Source: an uncultured Roseovarius sp.
GTDB lineage: Bacteria; Pseudomonadota; Alphaproteobacteria; Rhodobacterales; Rhodobacteraceae
DNA length: 64,000 nt
Direction: 5' to 3'
Assembly (NCBI RefSeq): GCF_947259555.1
Contig: NZ_CAMYMD010000025.1
Location: forward strand, 81,169-145,168
The first letter of the stretch is position 1; each line of letters begins with the position of its first letter. The notes beneath the pieces were generated by a model. That model was not told the origin of the DNA. It was given only the letters and a program-made list of their open reading frames with translations, and searched no databases. The position numbers were made by a program, and so were the translations under genes. This document shows positions 20,630 through 37,677 of the stretch, piece by piece.

Positions 20630-21535
20630 TTATACACTCAACATCCCGACCAAGCGGTCCAACTGATCTAGAGACTCGTAGCGTACGGTAATTTTCCCGT
20701 TTTCCTGACCCGGAACATGTTCGATCGCCACTTTCATCGACAGGGTCGCGGAAAGGTCGTCTTCTAGGGCTTTCGTATCAGCATCCTTGCTGCGCTCCTG
20801 TCGAGCCTTGGCTGATTTGCCGCTCTCGTTAAAAATATTTCCAACACCGGATTTTGCGAGCTTCTCTGTCTCGCGCACAGAGAGTGATTTCTGAATCACC
20901 CGCCGCGCCAAAGCAACCGGGTCGTCTGAGGTTATGATTGCCCGTGCGTGACCCGAGGATAACTTACCCTCACGGAGGTAACTCAAAACCTCGTCAGGCA
21001 AAGACAGGAGACGAACAGAGTTTGCGATATGGCTGCGGCTTTTTCCCAATGCATCCGCAAGTCTTTCCTGCGTATGCCCAAATTTCTGCATGAGCTGCTG
21101 ATATCCAAACGCCTCTTCGACCGGGTTGAGATCAGCACGCTGGATGTTTTCAATGATAGCAACTTCTAGGACTTCTGTATCGTCGAAATTCCGAATCAAA
21201 ACCGGGATTTCATGGAGCTTCGCCATCTGAGCGGCACGCCAGCGGCGTTCCCCGGCGACAATCTCGTATTCCCCAGCGCGGCCAGGAGCAGCGCGCACGA
21301 TCAGAGGCTGGATTATCCCTTTTTCACTGATAGACCTCGAAAGATCTTCAAGCTGACTCGTATCGAAATCTCGACGTGGCTGGTTAGGATTGGGTCGTAC
21401 CTTTTCGACCGGGACCATCAGATCCGGGCTCTGTGGGTCGTCCGTTCCTTGTTGCGTCGATTCAATCGAGACATCTGCCATAAGCGCGGATAGTCCCCGC
21501 CCCAAACCACGAGATTGTGATTTTTTTACAGTCAT
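20630..21535 (-). CDS. parB: chromosome partitioning protein ParB
   Basis: RGLGRGLSALM, QPLIVR, EIVAGERRWRAA, GKSRSHIANSVRLL helix-turn-helix. Confidence 0.97.
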   Translation of the reverse strand: MTVKKSQSRGLGRGLSALMADVSIESTQQGTDDPQSPDLMVPVEKVRPNPNQPRRDFDTSQLEDLSRSISEKGIIQPLIVRAAPGRAGEYEIVAGERRWRAAQMAKLHEIPVLIRNFDDTEVLEVAIIENIQRADLNPVEEAFGYQQLMQKFGHTQERLADALGKSRSHIANSVRLLSLPDEVLSYLREGKLSSGHARAIITSDDPVALARRVIQKSLSVRETEKLAKSGVGNIFNESGKSAKARQERSKDADTKALEDDLSATLSMKVAIEHVPGQENGKITVRYESLDQLDRLVGMLSV

Positions 21536-21552: not shown

Positions 21553-22362
21553 TCAGGCCGCGATACGTGCAGTGTTCTGTAACAACTCACGAGCCAGATC
21601 ACGATACGCCTGCGCGCCTTTGGACGACGGGTCATAGCTGAGGACAGACATCGCGTAAGACGGCGCCTCGCTCACACGTACATTGCGCGGTATGCGTGTC
21701 TTAAACACCAAGTCCCCAAGATTGTCTCGTGCATCCTGCTCCACCTGTGTCGACAAGTTATTACGCGCGTCGAACATCGTTAACACGACGCCTTCGATTC
21801 TAAGATTCTGATTTGCCGACTGCCGTACCTCTCGAATTGTCAGCATCAATTGCGACAAACCTTCAAGCGCAAAAAACTCACTTTGAAGCGGAACAAGAAT
21901 AGAGTGGGCTGCGACCATCGCATTCACGGTCAAGAGATTAAGAGATGGCGGGCAATCGATCAGGATGTAGTCCAGGTCAAATTCGTCCATAGCACGCTGC
22001 CGCAGTGCATCATGCAATAAAAAGCTGCGTTTCTCATTTGATATCAGTTCTATATCTGCAGAGGACAAATCAACAGTCGCGGGAATGATCAATAAGTTCT
22101 CTGTTTCCGTGCGCTGGACAACGTCTCCTAGCGGGATGTCATCCAAGAGCAGATCATACGTGGTGTATTTCCGAGAATCGGCCTCCACCCCCAAGCCAGT
22201 GGACGCATTTCCTTGTGGGTCGAGGTCTACAACCAAAACATTCTCACCTGCTTCGGCCAGCGCCGCGCCAAGATTTATAGTCGTGGTCGTTTTGCCGACC
22301 CCGCCTTTCTGATTGGCAATTGCGATGATCTTGGGCCCATCAGGGCGCGTTGGATCGGACAC
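21553..22362 (-). CDS. parA: chromosome partitioning ATPase ParA
   Basis: IIAIANQKGGVGKTTTTINLGAALA (deviant Walker A), DLDPQGNASTGLG. Confidence 0.97.
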   Translation of the reverse strand: MSDPTRPDGPKIIAIANQKGGVGKTTTTINLGAALAEAGENVLVVDLDPQGNASTGLGVEADSRKYTTYDLLLDDIPLGDVVQRTETENLLIIPATVDLSSADIELISNEKRSFLLHDALRQRAMDEFDLDYILIDCPPSLNLLTVNAMVAAHSILVPLQSEFFALEGLSQLMLTIREVRQSANQNLRIEGVVLTMFDARNNLSTQVEQDARDNLGDLVFKTRIPRNVRVSEAPSYAMSVLSYDPSSKGAQAYRDLARELLQNTARIAA

Positions 22363-22960
22363 GGGAAACTCCTGTGATGGCCATAATTACAGCATCGGCA
22401 TCCGTTTTACTCTTAGCAAGGTGCAGATCGAAAAACCACTTCCTTTGCGCAACTTCCAGTTCTTTCTTCCAGGTTGCTCCCTTGGGAAAGATCGCTGTTC
22501 CTGATCTTTTAAGGTGTCGGTCTGCGAATCCGAGGAGAGTATCTAGGTCAGCAAGCGCCCGTGCCGAAAGAACATCGGCATCGAGGCCATCAAGGGCCTC
22601 GATGCGGTCATTCAAAACCCTCGCGGAGATCCCAGTCTCTCGGATGACGGTTCGCAAAAAGGCGCATTTACGCGAGTCGCTTTCCACGAGTGTAACAGAC
22701 ATCGGCGATTTGCTTGCGCTAGCAAGGATGGCGATAACAAGGCCCGGAAATCCACCTCCGGATCCGATGTCGGCCCAATGGCCCGTTGGAGCGTTCATAA
22801 TCTCAGAGAGCTGAATGGAATCGATAAGATGCCGCGACCAGATATTATTGAGGCTATTCTTGGAAACAAGATTTATGGTCGGATTCCACTTTGCTAGCAA
22901 ATCCAAGTACACTTCCAACCGCTCCTTTGTTTCACGTGAAACATCAGGTTGTTCGGTCAT
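22340..22960 (-). CDS. rsmG: 16S rRNA (guanine(527)-N7)-methyltransferase RsmG (GidB)
   Basis: [43 protein letters not shown]; between mnmG and parA. Confidence 0.96.
22928..22943. promoter_or_regulatory. parS centromere site 1
   Basis: Exact 16-bp palindrome TGTTTCACGTGAAACA, inside the 5' coding end of rsmG. Confidence 0.93.
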
Positions 22961-24828
22961 GCTGTTTTAGCCCGATCACGGTGGCGAAGTTTAGCAAGGA
23001 TCAAGCTCAACGCTGCCGGGGTCATGCCCTCGACGCGACCCGCCTGCCCTATATTCTCCGGCCGAACGCGGGTGAGCTTGGACCGCAGTTCGCTAGAAAG
23101 ACCGTCAATAGAGCCATAGTCGAATTCTCTTGGAATTACATAGGCTTCGTCCCGCCTGAGCAGCTCGACATCCCGATTCTGACGTTCGATGTAATTTGCG
23201 TACAAAGCGTCTTTCTCAAGCTGGTCACGGGTGGTCTGATCTATCGCCGAAAAGGACGGGTTTAGGCGCATCAGGTCGTCAAAACCAACATCAGGAAACG
23301 CGAGTATTTGAAACGCAGACCGACGCGCGCCATCTTGGTTCACCTTCAGACCGATATCAGCCAAGTTACGAGGCGTATACGTGCAGCGATGCAACTCCTC
23401 CCGACCATTAACCAGCTTCTCCATCTTTTCCTCGAAAATGTGCCTGCGCTTTTCTCCGACACATCCAAACTGAACACCCGTTGGCGTCAATCTCTGGTCT
23501 GCATTATCAGCACGAAGCGACAGTCGGAATTCAGCCCTCGAGGTAAACATACGATAGGGCTCACTTACCCCTCTGGTGGTCAAATCATCAATCATAACCC
23601 CGATATAGCTATCCGTTCTGCTAAAGAATACGGGAGCCATGCCAAGCGATTCTCGCGCAGCGTTCATTCCAGCCACCACGCCTTGTGCCGCCGCTTCTTC
23701 GTAACCGGTTGTTCCATTTATCTGCCCGGCGAAATAAAGACCTGGAACGGACTTTACCGACAGCCGCGTGTCAAGAGACCTCGGGTCAACGTAGTCATAC
23801 TCGATGGCATAACCCGGCTGAAGGATTTTCGCCTTCTCAAGTCCAACAATCGACTGGACGTAGTCTTTCTGCACTTCTTCGGGAAGGGAAGTTGAAATAC
23901 CATTGGGATAAATCACATGGTCTGACAGACTCTCCGGCTCGAGAAATATCTGATGAGAGTGTTTGTCAGCGAACCGGACAACCTTATCTTCGATGGAGGG
24001 GCAGTACCGCGGCCCAACCCCGTCGATTTGGCCACCATACATAGCTGACCGATCAAGATTTTTCCTGATGATCGCGTGTGTCTTTTCGTTTGTATGGGTA
24101 ATCCCACAGGAGACTTGCCGCGCATGAGGCGTATTAGACAAAAAGGAAAAAAGAACGGGATCCTCATCACCCGGCTGAGCTTCAACACGCTGCCAATCAA
24201 TTGTACTGCCATCAAGGCGGGGTGGCGTTCCAGTCTTCAAACGCCCCAATCCAAGATCAAATTCATCAAGACGCCTCGCAAGACGTTCCGAGGGTTTATC
24301 ACCCATGCGGCCCCCCGGCCTTGAAACATCGCCGATGTGAATCATGCCGCGCAGGAACGTGCCAGTCGTCAGAATAACAGTCCCGGACGAAACCTCACTT
24401 CCATCGGAAAGACGCACTCCGGTAACCCGCGAGCCGTCCATAAGAAAATCAGCGGCTTCACCTTCAATGATTTCTAGTCCATCGCAGGCGTCCATTTCCC
24501 GCAACATTTCCTCGCGGTAAATTTTCCGGTCCGCCTGCGCACGCGGGCCTTGGACAGCCGGACCTTTACGCCGATTCAATAACCTGAACTGTATCCCTGC
24601 CCGGTCGGCAACACGCCCCATGACCCCATCGAGCGCGTCTATTTCCCGAACGAGGTGACCTTTTCCAAGACCCCCAATGGCCGGATTACAGGACATAACA
24701 CCAATTCCGCTCCGGTTTAACGTAATCAGCGCGGTGCGCGCGCCCATTCGGGCGGCCGCGTGAGCGGCATCACAGCCCGCATGGCCACCACCGATGACGA
24801 TGACATCAAAATGTTTCACGTGAAACAC
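22957..24828 (-). CDS. mnmG: tRNA uridine-5-carboxymethylaminomethyl synthesis enzyme MnmG (GidA)
   Basis: [32 protein letters not shown] motif; full-length GidA-type sequence. Confidence 0.97.
24812..24827. promoter_or_regulatory. parS centromere site 2
   Basis: Exact 16-bp palindrome TGTTTCACGTGAAACA spanning the first codons of mnmG (MFHVKH). Confidence 0.93.
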
Positions 24829-26146: not shown

Positions 26147-27418
26147 TCAGGTGTTCATCGAGTCGAAGAACTCCGAGTTTGTCTTTGTCTGCTTAAGCTT
26201 AGACAACAAGAACTCCACGGCATCCGTCGTGCCCATCGGGTTGAGTATGCGCCGGAGAACAAATGTCTTTTGCAGATCCAGCTTGTCGATCAGAAGATCT
26301 TCCTTTCGCGTTCCGGACTTAAGGATATCGATCGCGGGGAACACGCGCTTGTCTGCAACCTTACGATCCAGAACTATTTCAGAGTTACCCGTACCCTTGA
26401 ACTCTTCAAAAATCACCTCATCCATGCGGCTACCCGTATCGATCAGAGCCGTCGCTATAATCGTAAGAGACCCCCCCTCCTCAATATTTCGCGCAGCGCC
26501 AAAGAACCGCTTGGGCCTTTGCAAAGCGTTGGCATCCACACCACCGGTCAACACCTTGCCAGAGGATGGAACAACAGTATTGTAAGCTCTGCCCAGACGG
26601 GTGATCGAGTCGAGCAAAATCACGACATCCCTCTTATGCTCAACAAGGCGCTTGGCCTTCTCGATCACCATTTCCGATACTGCAACATGGCGCGTCGCCG
26701 GCTCATCGAACGTAGAACTCACGACTTCACCCTTCACAGAGCGCTGCATGTCCGTGACTTCTTCGGGCCTCTCGTCAATCAAAAGGACAATAAGATAACA
26801 TTCCGGGTGGTTCTTCTCGATACTGTTTGCGATATTCTGCAGAAGTACCGTCTTGCCCGTCCGCGGCGGCGCAACGATCAAAGAACGCTGTCCCTTGCCA
26901 ATCGGAGCAACCAGATCAATCACACGCGCTGAGCGATCCTTGATCGTCGGGTCCTCGATTTCCATTTTCAGACGTTCATCAGGATAAAGCGGCGTCAGGT
27001 TATCAAATGCAATCTTGTGGCGTGCGCGCTCAGGATCCTCGAAATTGATCTGCGTAACCGACGTAAGTGCAAAGTAACGCTCTGTCTCATCGGGCTGTTT
27101 CATCTGCCCTTCAATTGTATCGCCAGTGCGCAACGCATACTGACGAATCATTTCTGGCGAAACATAAATATCATCCGGACCTGGGAGGTAATTGGCTTCC
27201 GGAGAACGTAAAAACCCAAAGCCATCTTGCAAGACTTCAAGAACGCCATCCCCATAAACCGTCCAGTCGTCTTCCGCGCGCTCCTTAAGGATCGAGAACA
27301 TCATCTCACCCTTGCGCATCGTCGACGCGTTCTCGATCTCCAGCTCTTCGGCAATCGCCAACAGTTCCTTGGCGGTCAAGGCCTTCAAGTCAGACAAGTT
27401 CAAATGATCTTCGGACAT
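26147..27418 (-). CDS. rho: transcription termination factor Rho
   Basis: [40 protein letters not shown]. Confidence 0.97.
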
Positions 27419-27539: not shown

Positions 27540-27989
27540 TCAAAATTTGATCACGACAGAGAGCACAATAACAACCATTGCCAGCGTTGGAACTTCATTC
27601 ATAAGTCTGTGCTGACGCCCGCTAAGTGTATTCTCGCCTAGCGAAAATTCTTTGCGTCTCCTGCCGAGCCAAATATGAAACCACGTCATTACCACTATAC
27701 CGGCAAACTTGCTATATGGCCAAATTGAACCCCAATCTACAATTCCCGGCGTCATAACCAGAAATAGTCCAAAGATCCATGTCGCGATCATTGACGGATT
27801 CATTATGAACCGCAGAAGCTTGTATTCCATGATCTGAAAAACGGCGTCTTTACTGTCACCAAATTTGGATTGCTCCGTGTGGTAAACGAACAGCCGTGGC
27901 AAATAAAAGAGCCCTGCCATCCAAGTGATGACCGACATGATGTGAAATGCTTTTATCCAAGGATAAAGCATGGTCAGAAAATCAATCAT
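27540..27989 (-). CDS. hemJ: HemJ-type protoporphyrinogen oxidase (CopD-like membrane protein)
   Basis: WIKAFHIMSVITWMAGLFYLPRLFVYH, typical HemJ N-terminus; multi-TM. Confidence 0.88.
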   Translation of the reverse strand: MIDFLTMLYPWIKAFHIMSVITWMAGLFYLPRLFVYHTEQSKFGDSKDAVFQIMEYKLLRFIMNPSMIATWIFGLFLVMTPGIVDWGSIWPYSKFAGIVVMTWFHIWLGRRRKEFSLGENTLSGRQHRLMNEVPTLAMVVIVLSVVIKF

Positions 27990-28059
27990 CGAGCACTCCA
28001 GACGAGATCAGGTTTCTCTAATAATTATAAGAAAGATAAGAAAGATTGTAGTTTGATTT

Positions 28060-28410
28060 AGGCCAAGAAATTTCTGTGGATTATCATGTTATCAACAAGG
28101 TTATGCACCTGTGGACAGTTCGGTTAGTAATTTTTCAACCTCGTCATAATTAGCATAGTTGTACCACATAAAACATAATAAAAACAATAACTTAAATTGA
28201 TAAAATGAGTATAAAAACCAACAATTAATCTGTGTATTAATGGTTCAAGAATTGGGTTTTCCTTCGTTTTAAATTATCCTCGCCCACCGTGTATTACTTT
28301 CCTTGGTCGCTTAATGAACTGCGGCTTGTCCCCCGGTGGACGCTTTGGATGGATTCTCACGTAAATTGTTCATAAGGACATCATGTCGTTGTACGAAGGG
28401 TTATCCACAT
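28060..28410. other. oriC: candidate chromosomal replication origin (oriC)
   Basis: About 400-bp non-coding gap between hemJ and maf. Hand-counted GC is 14/60 at 28141-28200 and 15/60 at 28201-28260. DnaA-box-like sites: TGTGGATTA 28075-28083, TTATCAACA 28089-28097, TTATGCACC 28101-28109, perfect TTATCCACA 28401-28409. Flanked by genes near alphaproteobacterial origins and close to parAB/parS. Confidence 0.75.
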
Positions 28411-29008
28411 GGCCATGTCGATCACACTTGCCTCTGCGTCCGCCATCCGCCAAACGCTGCTAATGAACGCAGGTCTTGAATTTGATGTCATAAAACCGCG
28501 TGTTGACGAGATTGCGCTGCGAGACTCGATGATATCGGATGGTTGTCGCCCAAGAGAGATTGTTGATGCTCTCGCTGAAATGAAGGCGCTGCGCATAAGC
28601 TCAAAGCACCCGGAAAGGCTTGTGATCGGTTGCGATCAGGTGCTTGATCTAGAAGGGCAATTGCTCTCCAAGCCGGAAACGCTCGATATCGCTCGGAGAC
28701 AACTCCTGTCGTTACGAGGAAAACATCATGAGCTGTTATCCGCAGTCGTAGTCTGCGAGGCGGGCGCGCCAATCTGGCGCCATATCGGCCGCGCGCAACT
28801 GAGTGTCCGCAACTTTTCAGAGGATTGGCTGGATAGTTATTTAGATCGGAATTGGCCCCGGATTAGCGATAGTGTTGGAGCGTATAAGCTGGAAGAAGAA
28901 GGTGTCCGGCTTTTTTCACGAATTGACGGAGACTACTTCACCATTCTTGGGTTGCCTCTTCTGGATCTCTTGTCTTTTCTTACTCTCCGAGGAGACCTGC
29001 AAAAATGA
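28409..29008 (+). CDS. maf: Maf family nucleotide pyrophosphatase
   Basis: ITLASASAIRQTLLMNAGLEFDVIKPRVDE; position upstream of aroE. ATG 28409 or 28415. Confidence 0.92.
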   Translation: MAMSITLASASAIRQTLLMNAGLEFDVIKPRVDEIALRDSMISDGCRPREIVDALAEMKALRISSKHPERLVIGCDQVLDLEGQLLSKPETLDIARRQLLSLRGKHHELLSAVVVCEAGAPIWRHIGRAQLSVRNFSEDWLDSYLDRNWPRISDSVGAYKLEEEGVRLFSRIDGDYFTILGLPLLDLLSFLTLRGDLQK

Positions 29009-29838
29009 GTCACGAAAAAATACCCCTCGCTGGTGTGATAGGTTCTCCCATTGCACACTCGAAGTCCCCGCAACTTCACCGTCATTGGCTCAAAACTCTC
29101 GGTATTCCAGGGTATTACATCCCAATGGATGTGGCTTCTGATGATTTAGGAAATGTTTTGCAGACTTTGCCCAAGATGGGCTTCGTCGGCGTGAATATCA
29201 CCGTCCCCCATAAGGAGCGCGCGCTTGAGCTAGCCGATCTCGTCACCGATAGAGCGACATTGATCGGGGCTGCCAACACGCTCATATTTCGTAAGGATGG
29301 CAAGATTCACGCCGATAACACTGATGGATACGGATTCATTCAGAACCTTCATCAGAATGCACCAGATTGGGCCCCCAAAAGCGGACCAGCAGCCGTACTT
29401 GGGGCTGGCGGAGCTGCGCGCGCCGTTCTTGCCTCATTGCTGGATGCGGGTGTGCCTGAGATCATGATTGCCAACCGTACCCGTGTACGCGCGGAGGCAC
29501 TCCAATCCGAATTCGGAACGCGTCTCACCGTTGTCGATTGGGTACAGGCAGGCAACATGCTCGAAGAGGCCACGACAGTCGTGAACACGACATCGCTTGG
29601 AATGATAGGGCAGCCACCGCTTCGTATACCACTCGACGGCCTTCAAAAAGGAACTGTGGTCAATGATCTGGTCTACGCTCCTCTTAAGACGTCACTCTTG
29701 CTAGAGGCAGAGCGGGCCGGGTGCATCGCGGTGGATGGGCTTGGAATGCTTCTTCATCAGGCTGTGCCCGCGTTTGAGCGATGGTTCGGTACAAGACCGA
29801 GCGTCGATAGTGCGACCCGGGCAGCGGCGCTCAGATGA
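29005..29838 (+). CDS. aroE: shikimate dehydrogenase
   Basis: LAGVIGSPIAHSKSPQLHRHWL, VNITVPHKE, VLGAGGAARAVLASL. Confidence 0.96.
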   Translation: MSHEKIPLAGVIGSPIAHSKSPQLHRHWLKTLGIPGYYIPMDVASDDLGNVLQTLPKMGFVGVNITVPHKERALELADLVTDRATLIGAANTLIFRKDGKIHADNTDGYGFIQNLHQNAPDWAPKSGPAAVLGAGGAARAVLASLLDAGVPEIMIANRTRVRAEALQSEFGTRLTVVDWVQAGNMLEEATTVVNTTSLGMIGQPPLRIPLDGLQKGTVVNDLVYAPLKTSLLLEAERAGCIAVDGLGMLLHQAVPAFERWFGTRPSVDSATRAAALR

Positions 29839-30437
29839 GTTTTCTTATCGGCCTAACCGGCTCGATCGGGATGGGCAAATCAACGACGGCACGGATGTTT
29901 GCAGAAGAAGGGTGTGCATTGTGGGACGCTGACGCCGCAGTACATCGGCTCTATGCTAAGGGCGGCGCGGCGGTAAAACCGGTGTCAGCCCTTTATCCTG
30001 CGGCGATTGAAAATGATGCGGTATCGCGTTTCCAGCTCAAGCAGATCATCGCGCAAGATCCAAAAGCCTTGTCTCGAATCGAAAATCTCGTCCACCCGCT
30101 TGTGGCACAAGATCGTGCGAAGTTCATCCGTGATGAGCGCGTGAAGGGTACGGATATCATCGTTCTCGATGTCCCGCTCCTCTTCGAGACGGGGACGGAC
30201 CTTGAGATGGACGCGACTGTGACAGTCAGCGTGCCCTTTGAGGTACAACGTGCCCGCGTTTTGGAGCGTGGGACGATGACGCAAGAGCAGTTGGATAATA
30301 TACTGAAAAAACAAATGTCTGACCGTGAAAAACGCGCTAGGGCAGATTATGTGATTACCACCGATTCTCTTGATCACGCGCGTGATCAGGTACAGGACGT
30401 TCTAGCGAAGATCAGAGGCAGAATGAGACATGCGTGA
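29835..30437 (+). CDS. coaE: dephospho-CoA kinase
   Basis: FLIGLTGSIGMGKSTTARMFAEEG. Confidence 0.95.
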   Translation: MSFLIGLTGSIGMGKSTTARMFAEEGCALWDADAAVHRLYAKGGAAVKPVSALYPAAIENDAVSRFQLKQIIAQDPKALSRIENLVHPLVAQDRAKFIRDERVKGTDIIVLDVPLLFETGTDLEMDATVTVSVPFEVQRARVLERGTMTQEQLDNILKKQMSDREKRARADYVITTDSLDHARDQVQDVLAKIRGRMRHA

Positions 30438-31125
30438 AATCGTTCTGGATACCGAGACCACCGGTTTTGAGCCGGAAACAGGCGACAGGATAGTCGAAAT
30501 AGGTGCTGTTGAACTATACAATCATATGCCCACCGGCGTTACGTTTCACAAGTATATCAATCCACAGCGCGCCATGCCGGATGAAGCATTCGCAGTGCAT
30601 GGTCTGGGTGATGATTTCTTGCGAGACCAGCCCTTGTTCGCAGATGTCGCGGAGGAATTTCTGGATTTCGTGCGTGATGCCAAGCTTGTCATTCATAATG
30701 CGGCGTTTGACATGAAGTTTCTAAACGCCGAATTGGGATGGCTGAAATTACCTCAATTGCCTTGGGCTCAAGCCATTGACACGCTTGCAATTGCCCGAAG
30801 CAAATTTCCGGGTTCCCCTGCTTCCCTTGATGCACTGTGCCGGCGGTTTCAAATTGATAACTCGTCCCGCACCTTGCACGGTGCGCTGCTAGACTCGGAG
30901 ATACTTGCAGAAGTCTACTTGGAATTGATCGGTGGACGCCAACCGGATTTTGCTTTGTCTTCGGCGCAATCCGACCGCAGCCGCGACCCGAGTGAAAAAA
31001 CTGCCTGGCGTCCGAGTCCCAGACCTTCACCGTTGCCGACACGTCTTACCGATGAAGACTTAGCCGCCCATCAGGTTTTTGTAGACCGGATGGGCGACGC
31101 TGCCTTGTGGCGCAAGACGCGTTAG
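30430..31125 (+). CDS. dnaQ: DNA polymerase III epsilon subunit
   Basis: REIVLDTETTGFEPETGDRIVEIGAVEL, exonuclease motifs through HGALLDSEILAEVYLEL. Confidence 0.95.
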   Translation: MREIVLDTETTGFEPETGDRIVEIGAVELYNHMPTGVTFHKYINPQRAMPDEAFAVHGLGDDFLRDQPLFADVAEEFLDFVRDAKLVIHNAAFDMKFLNAELGWLKLPQLPWAQAIDTLAIARSKFPGSPASLDALCRRFQIDNSSRTLHGALLDSEILAEVYLELIGGRQPDFALSSAQSDRSRDPSEKTAWRPSPRPSPLPTRLTDEDLAAHQVFVDRMGDAALWRKTR

Positions 31126-31616
31126 GCGTCGGCCTTTTGCTCGGATGACTGAGCCTGCCTGCGCGCAATTTCGTTGCGATAAAGCTGGACAAAATCTATG
31201 TTTTCAAGATTGAGCGGCGGAAAACCACCATCGCGTGTGACATCACTGACGATACGGCGGATAAACGGGAAGATCATCCGCGGACATTCGATCAGAAGGA
31301 ACGGATGAAGCTGCTCATCCTGCACGCCTTCGATATGGAAAACGCCGACATATTCCATCTCCAGGACAAAAAGGACATCATCCGAATCCTTGTTCTTGGA
31401 GCTAATGTTGAGTTTGACCACCACCTCATACTGGTGTTCCGTGTTTCGCTTCTTCGCGTCGAGGTTGACCGCAACCTGCACATCTGGCTGGACATCGCCG
31501 CCGGTGCCGCGCTGAGCCAGCACATTTTCGAAGGACATGTCGCGGATGAATTGCGACAGGGTGTTCATCTTGATTTGCGGCGATTGCTGCGCCGCGCCAT
31601 TTTCCTGTTCGGCCAT
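31122..31616 (-). CDS. secB: protein-export chaperone SecB
   Basis: QFIRDMSFENVLAQRG...VFHIEGVQDEQLHPFLLIECPRMIFPFIRRIVSDVTRDGGFPPLNLENIDF. Confidence 0.96.
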   Translation of the reverse strand: MAEQENGAAQQSPQIKMNTLSQFIRDMSFENVLAQRGTGGDVQPDVQVAVNLDAKKRNTEHQYEVVVKLNISSKNKDSDDVLFVLEMEYVGVFHIEGVQDEQLHPFLLIECPRMIFPFIRRIVSDVTRDGGFPPLNLENIDFVQLYRNEIARRQAQSSEQKADA

Positions 31617-31698: not shown

Positions 31699-32388
31699 CT
31701 ATCGATCCAGCCCGAACGACAGGCCCATGTCCCAAAACGCCACTTCGAGACGCGTCGCGGTGCTGAAACGGTCACACAATCTTGTCCATCCTGGCGTCAT
31801 CTCCGGCGTATCTCCTAACCGGCGTGCGACCGCCCCATCAAAGAGCGCGCCCGCGTCGCGGCAGACCTGCTGATACTCGTCGCCTGCATAGGTGGTGATC
31901 CAATCGGCATAGGGGTGATCGTCGGGCACCGGCCCCAGCCGCGCGCCGATCTCGCCATAGCCCATGACGCAGGGCGCAAGTGCTGCCAGCAGGTCAAGGA
32001 AATTCCCCGCATGCCCGGCATCGAGCACATAGCGCGTATAGGCGAGGTTGGCGGGGTGTTCCTCGGCATTGTAGAGGTCGTCCTCGCTTAGCCCCGCCTC
32101 GGCGCAGGTCTTTACGTGCAAGCTGAGTTCTTGGTTGACGAGTGCGTCCACCGTGGCCGCACAGGCGCGCATCTCTTCGAGCGCATCCGTCTTGGTCACG
32201 GCGAGTGCCCAGGCGCGGGCGAAATGGATGAGGAACACGTAATCCTGCACCAAGTAGCCGAGAAACGCCTTGCGCGGCAGCGTGCCCTCGCGCAGCCCTT
32301 CGACAAAGGCGTGATGGGTGTAGTCCGTCCAGACCGTCCCCGCCGCATCGCGCAGGCGGGGAAAGGTCGCTCCATAGGTGTCGGTCAT
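31699..32388 (-). CDS. tenA: TenA family aminopyrimidine aminohydrolase (thiaminase II)
   Basis: HHAFVEGLREGTLPRKAFLGYLVQDYVFLIHFARAWALA; in the thiamine cluster. Confidence 0.92.
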   Translation of the reverse strand: MTDTYGATFPRLRDAAGTVWTDYTHHAFVEGLREGTLPRKAFLGYLVQDYVFLIHFARAWALAVTKTDALEEMRACAATVDALVNQELSLHVKTCAEAGLSEDDLYNAEEHPANLAYTRYVLDAGHAGNFLDLLAALAPCVMGYGEIGARLGPVPDDHPYADWITTYAGDEYQQVCRDAGALFDGAVARRLGDTPEMTPGWTRLCDRFSTATRLEVAFWDMGLSFGLDR

Positions 32389-33317
32389 TCTGCGTTCAGG
32401 TCCATAGCGAGGCCCGAAACGGGCGTGTCATTCTCGATCATCCCCGCGTCCAGCAGGAATCGCTCGAACCGCTTGTAGCGGGCGTGATCGAGCGCGGCGG
32501 GACGGGTGGCAAAGCGCGGGAAGGTATCGACCCAGGCTTTCTCATTCAGCTCATCCTGCAACTCGCGCGAGGTGCCGGCGAAGATCTCCCAGCTTTCTTG
32601 CGGGTGGTTCATGATGTATTGCGTCGCGCGCTCGGCGGCGTGCAGGAAGCGGCGGATCATGTCGGCATCCATCCGGTCGGGATTGGCCACATAGATCAGC
32701 TCGTCATAGGCGGGCACTCCTTCTTCCTCGATATAGAAACAGCGGCCCGGCACGCCTTCGATCTCCATCTGATTGAGCTCGAAATTGCGATAGGCCCCAA
32801 TCACCGCATCCACTTGCCCCGACATCAGCGAAGGCGAGAGCGACCAGTTGACGCTGACCAGTTCGATATCGTCGAGGCTATGGCCATGTTGCGCGAGAAT
32901 AGTCGAGAGCAGCACCTCCTCGACGCCCGCCACGGAAAAGCCAACCTTGCGGCCCTTGAGGTCAGCGGTGGATTTTACGGGGCCGTCCTCCAACACCAGA
33001 AGGCAATTGAGCGGGGTGGCGACCAGCGTGCCCACCCGGCGCAGCGGCAGCCCGTTCTCGATCTGCATGTGCAGTTGCGGCTGATAGGAAATCGCCAGAT
33101 CGGCCTGACCGGCGGCGACCATCTTGGGCGGGTCGGAGGGATCGGCGGGGGCGATCACCTCGACCTCCAGCCCGGCCTCTTCGAAATAGCCTAGCTCTTC
33201 GGCCAGGATGATTGGCCCGTGATCGGGGTTCACGAACCAGTCGAGGATCAGGGTCATCTTGTCTTGGGCCATGGCCGGGGCGGCCAGAAAGGCGAGGATC
33301 AGGGTCAGGTATCTCAT
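32385..33317 (-). CDS. thiY: ABC transporter substrate-binding protein, NMT1/THI5 (ThiY) type
   Basis: Signal peptide MRYLTLILAFLAAPAMA, then KMTLILDWFVNPDHGPIILAEELGYFEEAGLEVEVI; in thi operon. Confidence 0.88.
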   Translation of the reverse strand: MRYLTLILAFLAAPAMAQDKMTLILDWFVNPDHGPIILAEELGYFEEAGLEVEVIAPADPSDPPKMVAAGQADLAISYQPQLHMQIENGLPLRRVGTLVATPLNCLLVLEDGPVKSTADLKGRKVGFSVAGVEEVLLSTILAQHGHSLDDIELVSVNWSLSPSLMSGQVDAVIGAYRNFELNQMEIEGVPGRCFYIEEEGVPAYDELIYVANPDRMDADMIRRFLHAAERATQYIMNHPQESWEIFAGTSRELQDELNEKAWVDTFPRFATRPAALDHARYKRFERFLLDAGMIENDTPVSGLAMDLNAE

Positions 33318-34297
33318 GGGTCTGTCTCCTGTTGAACATCGCCGAGGGCGATCAATGCAATCTCTCCGTCCCAATGGCCGCGCAGTCGCGTCGCGGCCTG
33401 CCACGATCGCAGGCCGGACCGGCAGGCCAGCACGGCGCGTACGCCTTGGGGGGTCGTGTCGGGGTGGTCGAATTCGGTGACCGTGCGCCGGGTGGCGTTT
33501 GGCAGGGCCGGGCCGGGTTCATCCTCTGCCCGCAGATCGACGAGCCAATCGGCCTTGGTGATTTGCGCAGGCGCGAGGAAGCCGAAACCGTCCTCCGGCT
33601 CGGGAGCGCCGTCGAAACGGAAGCCGCCGAAGCGGTGACCAATGGCCTCGAAACTGACGAGTTGACCGAGAGGTTGGGGCTCCATTCGCGCCAAAACCTC
33701 CATCGCCATTTGCGCCTGAAGACTACCCAGAACCCCCACGCAAGGCCCCAGCACGCCATCTGTATCGCAACTGCCCAACCGATCCGGCAGGTCGGGGAAT
33801 ACTGCGCGCAGGGACGGTGCGCCACCGCAGAACCCGCCGCAATATCCGGAGGTGCCCACGATCGACGCGCTGATGAATGGCTTACCCTGCTCAAGGCAGG
33901 TATCGGACAGCACATAGCTCGCTGCGAAACTGTCGGCGCAATCCAGAACCAGATCAGCAGCGACCACGTGATCCGATGCATTCAACGGATCAAGCGGCTC
34001 TGACACGGCGGAAACCTCACAGTCGGGGTTGAGCGTGGCCATATGCTCGGCGGCAACCTGCGCCTTGGGCAGGCCGACATCCTCCATGCGAAACAGCGTT
34101 TGACGGTGCAGGTTGCTCAGGGACACCCGGTCGCCATCCATCAGCGTGATCCGCCCCACGCCCGCGCCCACAAGGTACGGCAGCACGGGCGCGGCAAGCC
34201 CGCCAGCGCCAACAACCAGCACATGCGCCGCGCCGAGCCGGGCCTGCCCCCCTGCCCCGAACTCGGGCAGGGCGATCTGGCGGGCGTAGCGGGTCAT
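33314..34297 (-). CDS. thiF: ThiF/MoeB/HesA family adenylyltransferase with C-terminal rhodanese-like domain
   Basis: YARQIALPEFGAGGQARLGAAHVLVVGAGGLAAPVLPYLVGAGVGRI; C-terminal DWLVDLR...AVLACRSGLRSWQAATRLR rhodanese-like. Confidence 0.88.
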   Translation of the reverse strand: MTRYARQIALPEFGAGGQARLGAAHVLVVGAGGLAAPVLPYLVGAGVGRITLMDGDRVSLSNLHRQTLFRMEDVGLPKAQVAAEHMATLNPDCEVSAVSEPLDPLNASDHVVAADLVLDCADSFAASYVLSDTCLEQGKPFISASIVGTSGYCGGFCGGAPSLRAVFPDLPDRLGSCDTDGVLGPCVGVLGSLQAQMAMEVLARMEPQPLGQLVSFEAIGHRFGGFRFDGAPEPEDGFGFLAPAQITKADWLVDLRAEDEPGPALPNATRRTVTEFDHPDTTPQGVRAVLACRSGLRSWQAATRLRGHWDGEIALIALGDVQQETDP

Positions 34298-34890
34298 GTT
34301 GTGGCCTCGATCCATTGCCGCACCCGCGCCTCCGGATCGGCGTTCAGCGTGATATCCGTCACCGCCGAGACCACATCTGCCCCTGCCTCAAAGGCGCCCT
34401 GCGCACGCTCCACCGACATGCCGCCAATGGCAACGAGTGGTATATCACCAATCAGGCGCTTCCACTCCGTCACCTTCTCCAGCCCCTGTTCGTCCCATTT
34501 CATTTTCTTGAGAATGGTGGGGTAGACCGGGCCGAGGGCCACATAGTCGGGATCGTGTGACAGCGCGCGGTCCAGTTCGGCATGGTCATGGGTGCTGAGG
34601 CCCAGCTTGATCCCGGCGCGGCGAATGGCGGCGATGTCAGCGGTGTCGAGATCCTCTTGCCCGAGATGCACCCAGTCGCACCCCTCATCAATCGCCACCT
34701 GCCAGTGATCATTGACCACAAGGATCGCACCAGCCTCCCGACACAGCCTCTGCGCCTGCGCCATCTGCTGTTCAAGCGCATCGCCGGTCAACTCCTTGAC
34801 CCTGAGTTGCACCAGCCCGACGCCAAGCGGCAAAAGGCGGCGCAGCCATGCGACGTCATCGAATATCGGGTAGAAACGCGGCAAGGCCAT
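34294..34890 (-). CDS. thiE: thiamine phosphate synthase
   Basis: VGLVQLRVKEL, VNDHWQVAIDEGCDWVHLGQEDLD, YVALGPVYPT. Confidence 0.93.
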   Translation of the reverse strand: MALPRFYPIFDDVAWLRRLLPLGVGLVQLRVKELTGDALEQQMAQAQRLCREAGAILVVNDHWQVAIDEGCDWVHLGQEDLDTADIAAIRRAGIKLGLSTHDHAELDRALSHDPDYVALGPVYPTILKKMKWDEQGLEKVTEWKRLIGDIPLVAIGGMSVERAQGAFEAGADVVSAVTDITLNADPEARVRQWIEATT

Positions 34891-35660
34891 CAGGTAAACG
34901 CCCTCCCAAGCACTGGTGTCGAAGGCGCGGCCATGTCGCGCGGCTCCATTGGGTCAGCCTTGAACCCCAGACGACCGGCTTCCAGCGCGCGAGCGAATCC
35001 CTCGGCCATCGCCGCCGGATCGCCCGCCTTGGCAACGGCGGTGTTGAGCAGCACGGCGTCGTAGCCAAGTTCCATCGCATGTGCGGCCTGTGAAGGCAGG
35101 CCCAGCCCGGCGTCGATCACAAGCGGAAGGTCGGGGAAATGCGCGCGCAAGCTGCGCAGCCCGTAGATATTGTTGAGCCCCAACCCCGTACCGATGGGCG
35201 CGCCCCAGGGCATAAGCACCCGGCACCCGGCTTCGACCAGCCGCTCGCAGAGCACCAGATCCTCGGTGCAATAGGGAAACACCTGAAAGCCGTCATCGGT
35301 CAGGATGCGCGCCGCTTCGACAAGGCCGAACGGGTCGGGCTGTAACGTGTCGGCGTGGCCGATCACCTCCAGCTTGATCCAGCTGGTGTCAAAGAGTTCC
35401 CGCGCCATCTGCGCTGTGGTCACCGCCTCGCGCACCGAATGGCACCCGGCGGTGTTGGGCAGGACATGTACGCCCAGATCGCCGATCATGTCCCAAAATG
35501 CCTGTCCCGCGCGTTCATCCCCCGCCTCGCGGCGCACCGACACGGTGGCGATGTCCGCGCCGGAGCGTTTGAATGCCTCGGCGAGGATCGCGGGCGAGGG
35601 GTATTGCGCAGTGCCTAGCATAAGCCGCGATTTGATCTCGGTGTCGTAGTAGATCGGCAT
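34890..35660 (-). CDS. thiG: thiazole synthase
   Basis: [86 protein letters not shown]. Confidence 0.95.
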
Positions 35661-35661
35661 G

Positions 35662-35859
35662 TCAGCCCCCTTGCCGTGGGGCCACGATCTCTACACGATC
35701 CCCACTACTCAGTCTCTGTTCTGGCCTGAGGGCGGCTGGAATGAAATTCTCATTCAGCGCCGTTGCAACCTTGGCCTCGCCGTAACCCTGCTCGATCAAT
35801 AGCGCGTCGAGTGTCATGGCGGCGGTTTCCTCTGCGGTTCCGTTAACCGTGATCTTCAT
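35662..35859 (-). CDS. thiS: sulfur carrier protein ThiS
   Basis: [26 protein letters not shown]...[12 protein letters not shown] with C-terminal GG. Start set at 35859. Confidence 0.93.
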
Positions 35860-36835
35860 GATAAAACTCCGGTGCTTCGTTCTCGCGCGTTGCCACCCCG
35901 GCGGCCATGCGCGCGACGGCGGGTGATAACAGAAATCCGTGGCGAAATAGGCCGTTGACATGGATCGTCTCGCCCTTGCGAGTGACGCGCGGCAAGTTGT
36001 CGGGGAAGGCCGGGCGCGCGTCGGCTCCGATCTCCATCACCTCGGCCTCGCCAAAGGCCGGGTGCAGGGCATAGGCGGCAGAGAGCAGTTCCATCACCGA
36101 CCGCGCCGAGGCGCGCCCCTTCTCCTCGCTCTCGATCTGTGTGGCCCCCAACATGAAAACGCCATCGCCGCGCGGCACGATGTAGAGCGGGAAACGGGGG
36201 TGCAGAAGGCGAATGGGACGGGACAGGGTCACATCCGCCGAGCGCAGCACGACCATCTCGCCCTTGACGCCGCGCAGGTCGGGCAGACTGTCCTGTGCGG
36301 CAAGCCCGCGACAGTCGATCACAGGGCCGGTGGGAGCAGCGTCGCTTTGCTCGAACCGCGCACCCGCGTCCTCCAGGCGCTTGCGCAGATGCAAGAGCGC
36401 CGCGCGCGGGTCAATATGCGCCTCGTCGGCGAAGTAGAGCGCGCGGTCGTGGCGGTCAGCCAGATGCGGCTCTAACACGGTCAGATCGGCACCTGTAACC
36501 AGGCGATGCCCCGTGGTGCGCCGGGCGAATTGGTCGAGTTCGCGGCGGTCGCGTTCCAGCGTTACCATCAGCGAGCCGCGCCGGATCACCTCGACGCCCT
36601 GCGCCTGCCACCAATCGGCGGCCTCTTGCCCTAATCGCATGACGGGTTCCTCGGCGGTGAAGCCCTCGCAGAAGGGTGCGAGCATGCCACCCGCCCACCA
36701 CGAACAGCCATGCGCGCCGGGCGAAGGCGCGGGATCGCGCAGGGTGACAGCAACGCCTCGGCTGATGAGTTCGGTGGCGACGCACAGCCCCACGATGCCA
36801 GCGCCGCGGATGGTGACAGCTTCGGTCATCTCCAA
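35843..36835 (-). CDS. thiO: glycine oxidase ThiO (FAD-dependent oxidoreductase)
   Basis: VTIRGAGIVGLCVATELISRGVAVTL FAD motif, GHRFGFLLSPA-like C-terminus; in thi operon. Confidence 0.9.
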   Translation of the reverse strand: MEMTEAVTIRGAGIVGLCVATELISRGVAVTLRDPAPSPGAHGCSWWAGGMLAPFCEGFTAEEPVMRLGQEAADWWQAQGVEVIRRGSLMVTLERDRRELDQFARRTTGHRLVTGADLTVLEPHLADRHDRALYFADEAHIDPRAALLHLRKRLEDAGARFEQSDAAPTGPVIDCRGLAAQDSLPDLRGVKGEMVVLRSADVTLSRPIRLLHPRFPLYIVPRGDGVFMLGATQIESEEKGRASARSVMELLSAAYALHPAFGEAEVMEIGADARPAFPDNLPRVTRKGETIHVNGLFRHGFLLSPAVARMAAGVATRENEAPEFYHEDHG

Positions 36836-37620
36836 ACCTCGTGAAAATGATGCACCGGCCCGTGCCCGTGCCCGATCTGCAGCCCGTCAGCGGCCAGTAT
36901 CGCGCGGTGCAGCCAGTCATGGGCGGTTTCGACAGCCTCGGGCAGGGTCAGTCCCTTTGCCAGCCCCGCCGCGATGGCCGAGGACAGCGTGCACCCGGTG
37001 CCATGCGTGTTGCGTGTGGCGATGCGGGGGGCGTCGAGGCGCATAACCTCATCGGAGATAAGCCAGTCGGTGCAGGTCTCGCCCTGTGCGTGCCCGCCCT
37101 TCATCAGCACAGCCTTGGCCCCCATCTCGCGCAGCCGCGCGCCTTGATTCTGCATCTCGGTGTCGGTTTCTGCCTCGGCACAGCCCAACAAAGCCGCCGC
37201 TTCGGGCAGGTTTGGCGTCAGAAGGTCGGCGCGCGGCAGAAGACGCGCGATCAGCGCCGCGCGCGCGGCATCCGGAAGAAGCCGGGCACCGGACTTTGCC
37301 ACCATTACCGGATCGAGCACCACGGGGCCGTGATACCCTTCCAGCGCCTGCGTCACCGTCGCGATCAACTCGGCATCGCCCAGCATGCCGATCTTGATGC
37401 AATCGACTCTGATATCGCCCAAAACGTCCGCAATCTGCGCCGCGACGGTCGGGTTGGGGATAGGGTGCACATCGGTCACGACACAGGTGTTTTGCGCGGT
37501 CACGGCGGTGATCACGCTGGTGCCATAAACGCCCAATGCCGAAAAGGTCTTGAGATCGGCCTGAATTCCAGCGCCGCCACCGCTGTCGGAGCCTGCGATT
37601 GTCAAAGCTGTGGCAGCCAT
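36826..37620 (-). CDS. thiD: bifunctional hydroxymethylpyrimidine kinase/phosphomethylpyrimidine kinase
   Basis: ALTIAGSDSGGGAGIQADLKTFSALGVYGTSVITAVTAQNT; first gene after the TPP riboswitch. Confidence 0.95.
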   Translation of the reverse strand: MAATALTIAGSDSGGGAGIQADLKTFSALGVYGTSVITAVTAQNTCVVTDVHPIPNPTVAAQIADVLGDIRVDCIKIGMLGDAELIATVTQALEGYHGPVVLDPVMVAKSGARLLPDAARAALIARLLPRADLLTPNLPEAAALLGCAEAETDTEMQNQGARLREMGAKAVLMKGGHAQGETCTDWLISDEVMRLDAPRIATRNTHGTGCTLSSAIAAGLAKGLTLPEAVETAHDWLHRAILAADGLQIGHGHGPVHHFHEVWR

Positions 37621-37677
37621 TGCCGTTCCTCTTATTTTTCGGGGAACGGACAGGCGGCGCATGGTGCGCATCGGTCC

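Follow-up and report, generated by a model that had tools for sequence, protein, structure and literature searches.

The hemJ-maf intergenic gap as the probable chromosomal replication origin of Roseovarius

Genes and sequence features at the hemJ-maf locus

The window analysed here is a stretch of 64 kb (positions 81169-145168 of contig C25) from a draft genome (3.93 Mb in 111 contigs) of a Roseovarius, a marine alphaproteobacterium. Its Maf protein matches those of Roseovarius, Thalassovita and other Rhodobacterales at 60-70% identity, the top genus-mate (G024) reaching 71%. A non-coding region of 419 bp, the putative oriC, extends from the hemJ start to the maf start (27990-28408). It is bordered on the left by hemJ (UPF0093; 27540-27989, minus strand; PF03653, E=1.3e-56), followed by rho (26147-27418, minus strand; NF006886, E=1.1e-208) and, further left of these flanking genes, by mnmG, rsmG and parAB, with parA at 21553-22362 and parB at 20630-21535, both on the minus strand. 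The right border is the gene for a maf-like nucleotide pyrophosphatase (28409-29008, plus strand; NF002690/TIGR00172), after which come aroE, coaE and dnaQ (29005-31125, plus strand) and then secB (31122-31616, minus strand). An earlier note on this DNA had named the flanking genes as mnmE/rho/hemJ and maf/aroE/coaE/dnaQ/secB, and family-profile matches such as those given above bear the names out. Directly downstream of secB, at 31699-37671, lies a thiamine-salvage/synthesis cluster with genes for TenA, an SsuA-like binding protein, ThiF, a ThiE-type TMP synthase, ThiG, a DAO oxidase and an HMP kinase.

The earlier note had also described a non-coding, AT-rich gap in a GC-richer region, and the composition agrees, with 35.5% GC over 28003-28408 against 45-65% per kb in the surroundings. 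The 23-25% GC given there is matched at 28151-28250 (22-24%) but does not apply throughout, since the AT-richness is uneven and 28301-28350 has 58% GC. When nearest-neighbour energies were used, the 30-, 50- and 100-bp stretches of lowest stability in the 64 kb were all found inside the gap, at 28176, 28168 and 28146, respectively. The last of these, the most easily melted 100 bp of the window (28146-28245), has a mean of -1.098 kcal/mol per step compared with a window mean of -1.522. An easily melted AT-rich element, one of the features by which an oriC is recognised, is present in the gap. An Rfam search of the locus gave no match.

DnaA box A (TAATCCACA; 28075-28083, minus strand) and box B (TTATCAACA; 28089-28097, plus strand) each have one mismatch. 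Box C (TTATGCACC; 28101-28109, plus strand) has one mismatch to TTATNCACA and is graded as weak because it has two to TTATCCACA. This means that of the trio of boxes proposed previously the two at 28075 and 28089 stand, while that at 28101 is weaker. The perfect 9-mer that had been placed at 28401 is indeed an exact TTATCCACA (28401-28409, plus strand) and overlaps the maf start codon, its final base being the A of the ATG at 28409. There are five DnaA sites with at most one mismatch in the whole 64 kb, three of them at the gap, and nowhere else in the 145-kb contig are three such sites found inside 400 bp. In the gap proper, with the 28401 box excluded, two sites with at most one mismatch were found, where dinucleotide shuffles give 0.18 and 1.3% of them contain as many. 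Sites with at most two mismatches number eight, compared with 1.9 in shuffles (0.1% reach eight). Enrichment is seen only under the one-mismatch definition and in the relatives, and is absent for TTWTNCACA, which occurs twice over the window with 2.2 copies expected.

Conservation of the gap among relatives

We found hemJ and maf in the same arrangement in 93 distinct relatives, in which the gap measures 359-500 bp with a median of 412. Across 94 gaps (the window and the relatives), boxes with at most one mismatch number 2.38 per gap, which is about 20 times the level in shuffles (0.12) and about 33 times that of the flanking DNA (0.07 per 419 bp). A DnaA-box cluster beyond chance, another feature expected of an oriC, is found both in the 94 gaps and in the window's own gap. 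Of the 93 relatives, 68 have a TAATCCACA-like box in the part of the gap where the window has box A, in most cases 80-89 bp from the start of hemJ. In 82 there is a box with no more than one mismatch close to the start of maf, which in 67 stands at the offset seen in the window. In an alignment of 93 rows, comprising the window and 92 relatives (one long gap was omitted), the column at box B is kept as tt.tcc, the relatives' consensus at the position of box C is tt.tccaca, and tandem boxes are visible ahead of maf. Near 28122, 28222 and 28280 the window's copies are degenerate where relatives carry boxes.

Beside box A lies a conserved AT-rich block of 44 bp (28019-28062), which on the basis of its melting energy and high column conservation is a candidate unwinding element. 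It carries two tandem copies of AAGAAAGAT at 28029-28046, its 30-bp melting energy is above 99.98% of the window, and in the relatives it ends in a conserved GGATGATG...GTAGG motif. This block next to the first DnaA box is the single, modestly novel detail of the locus. An IHF-like site (AAACAATAACTTA; 28182-28194, plus strand) is weak, with one mismatch to WATCAANNNNTTR, and its aligned columns are kept as atCAat...TTa. Exact IHF sites are found in 15 of the 94 gaps, mostly at offset 170-199, with none in the window's gap. The exact CtrA site TTAA-N7-TTAA is found in nine of the 94 gaps and is absent from the window's gap, and CtrA control of the Caulobacter Cori kind was rejected on this ground.

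The conserved AT-rich block and the DnaA box at the maf start are features of the lineage. We propose, very tentatively and as something that may well prove wrong, that Rhodobacterales origins have a lineage-specific unwinding module next to box A, consisting of the conserved AT-rich block and its GGATGATG...GTAGG, and that the start-codon DnaA box ties the origin to maf. If this is true, initiation and maf expression could be coupled through the occupancy of DnaA.

DnaA boxes were also observed at other sites. In two distant alphaproteobacteria a perfect box is located at or just before the maf start (L192:5664 and L194:5987, with maf turned to the plus strand). In L192 the other boxes are about 3 kb upstream. 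These positions suggest a DnaA link to maf itself. In the present genome two perfect tandem boxes with a 12-bp period (TGTGGATAACTCTGTGGATAA) are located at C59:87318-87338 (L173:3318-3338), upstream of a gene that encodes DUF6456 and a weak HTH. Tandem pairs like this one (at most two mismatches) are present in 37 of 40 genomes of the genus, and the pair is possibly a DnaA-controlled promoter or a DnaA-titrating site. A further tandem pair, TGGGGGTAACTCTGTGGATAA, lies on contig C61 (L179:289-309) beside two genes that by eye look like msrQ and msrP. An Rfam search at this pair gave no match, and a similar pair is found in several relatives, 200-900 bp from the contig start.

Chromosomal position of the gap and alternative placements

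In the complete Roseovarius chromosome G022, a contig of 2.99 Mb, dnaA (507 kb) and maf (938 kb) lie 431 kb apart. Every 10-20-kb sample of GC skew in this chromosome is negative across 20-948 kb, samples from 948 kb to 2.32 Mb are nearly all positive, and by 2.6 Mb, close to the opposite pole, the skew has returned to negative values. The cumulative skew, resolved to 2 kb, drops steadily as far as about 938 kb and then forms a flat valley that extends to about 974 kb. The octamer GGGCAGGG, which we take to be the FtsK-orienting (KOPS) motif with the same meaning in Roseovarius, has 19 plus-strand copies in 0-944 kb, of which 10 fall between dnaA and maf, compared with 81 in 944-1615 kb. In G003 and G035 positive skew starts near maf and persists through most samples towards dnaA, the sign in G003 flipping about 30-40 kb before maf. 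The switch in strand asymmetry that marks an oriC is present in G022 for both GC skew and the FtsK motif, with supporting samples from G003 and G035, and the skew places the origin only to about 30-40 kb. When the window or the contig was taken alone, local minima of the cumulative skew fell 25-27 kb downstream of the gap, and since the stretch is so short we take them to reflect gene orientation.

The two parS sites that the earlier note had seen close to parAB are both perfect copies of the 16-mer TGTTTCACGTGAAACA (22928-22943 and 24812-24827, plus strand). They are the only two in the genome and lie 3.5 and 5.5 kb from the gap. When seven Roseovarius genomes (this one and six relatives) were searched allowing up to one mismatch, each was found to contain exactly two parS sites, both perfect, and in all seven they lie on the hemJ side of the gap, at a distance of 3-6 kb.

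We consider it very likely that this Roseovarius has its chromosomal oriC in the hemJ-maf gap, as the earlier note had suggested. Four independent kinds of evidence agree in support of this, namely the gene neighbourhood, the DnaA boxes conserved in relatives, the location of parS and the strand-asymmetry switch in a complete relative. Counting against it are the small number of boxes (one perfect and two with one mismatch only, that at 28101 being weak), the poor resolution of the skew, with its flat valley in G022 and early flip in G003, the cumulative-skew minimum of the contig itself about 25 kb downstream, and the lack of exact consensus sites for either CtrA or IHF in the gap of the window.

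If the gap were merely the divergent promoter of hemJ and maf, with DnaA acting as a transcription regulator, the origin would lie elsewhere nearby, for example beside dnaA. One conserved box does overlap the maf start, part of the block at 28019-28062 may serve as the hemJ promoter, and skew by itself resolves tens of kb only. This explanation is nevertheless highly improbable, since the gaps of the relatives are far richer in boxes than their surroundings and the box-rich gap stays between rho/hemJ on one side and maf-aroE-coaE-dnaQ on the other even in genomes where hemE and ppsR adjoin it directly. Furthermore, the dnaA locus is ruled out by the polarity of G022 together with the lack of boxes around dnaA in the present genome, where no second box cluster was seen either at dnaA or at the other perfect boxes. 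The latter are all isolated except for the tandem pair at C59:87318, which was rejected as an origin because it is upstream of the DUF6456 gene with no further boxes. An origin in the same neighbourhood but in another gap, such as one nearer to parAB and parS, would be compatible with a skew resolution of 30-40 kb and with the adjacent segregation genes and sites. We regard this as the least probable placement of all, since it is the hemJ-maf gap alone that holds the box cluster of the contig, and no other part of the window melts more easily.

With the hemJ-maf gap as oriC, the replication origin of a Roseovarius is pinned to 419 bp, and assemblies rotated to dnaA do not begin at the origin in this genus. 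It also provides a usable rule for draft Rhodobacterales genomes, in which the origin would be the hemJ-maf gap with two parS sites at 3-6 kb.

Proposed initiation and comparison with known origins

The location and sequence anatomy of the gap are those of an oriC, and the steps of initiation there may be pictured as follows. DnaA would bind and oligomerise at box A (28075), the neighbouring weaker boxes and the perfect box over the maf start codon, while a bend at the IHF-like site, if bound by IHF, may bring the groups of boxes together. The DNA would open for helicase loading either at 28019-28062, in the AT-rich DNA next to box A, or in the very weak stretch at 28146-28245, and after loading two forks would depart in opposite directions. 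ParB bound to the two parS sites 3-6 kb away would move the new origins apart.

In Escherichia coli oriC an AT-rich element is followed by a box in the TGTGGAT(T/A)A orientation, with an IHF site further in. The Roseovarius gap has the same order of AT-rich element, box in this orientation and IHF-like site, but about 100 bp separate its IHF-like site from box A, and it has fewer and weaker boxes. Compared with the E. coli 13-mers, the purine-rich strand is reversed. A run of nine trio-type triplets can be read by eye behind box A, starting about 28 nt from the box, whereas the published BUS definition requires a DnaA box with at least three N-A-N DnaA-trios within 16 bp (PMC8287927).

The Caulobacter crescentus origin, Cori, is located between hemE and COG1806 and has five CtrA sites (PMC1914354). 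Like Cori, the Roseovarius gap is non-coding with DnaA boxes, an AT-rich stretch and an IHF-like site, and it is on the same side of maf-aroE-coaE-dnaQ-secB, but it is bordered by hemJ and maf and is without an exact TTAA-N7-TTAA. The gene order is seen in other alphaproteobacteria as well, since several genomes of other families have rho-hemJ-(hemH)-hemE-[gap]-ppsR-maf-aroE-coaE-dnaQ-secB, with DnaA boxes in the gap in several. The Roseovarius locus has this Caulobacter-type neighbourhood except that hemE is elsewhere, on contig C8, and that ppsR (COG1806) was not found in a search of the genome, and the origin therefore lies directly between hemJ and maf. Since this is the usual place of the origin in its group, the finding is expected rather than surprising. 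Among the Rhodobacteraceae, ParB foci have served to follow OriC1 of Rhodobacter sphaeroides in cells (PMC6315104). Origins have also been predicted in bulk by Ori-Finder for 101 genomes of the family, and the criteria of that survey (PMC6699656), which include DnaA boxes, a GC-disparity minimum, a local GC minimum and proximity to parAB, apply to the gap as well, which is not known to differ from these origins. Since origins near parAB are already catalogued for this family, the hemJ-maf gap would be an ordinary further instance of them.
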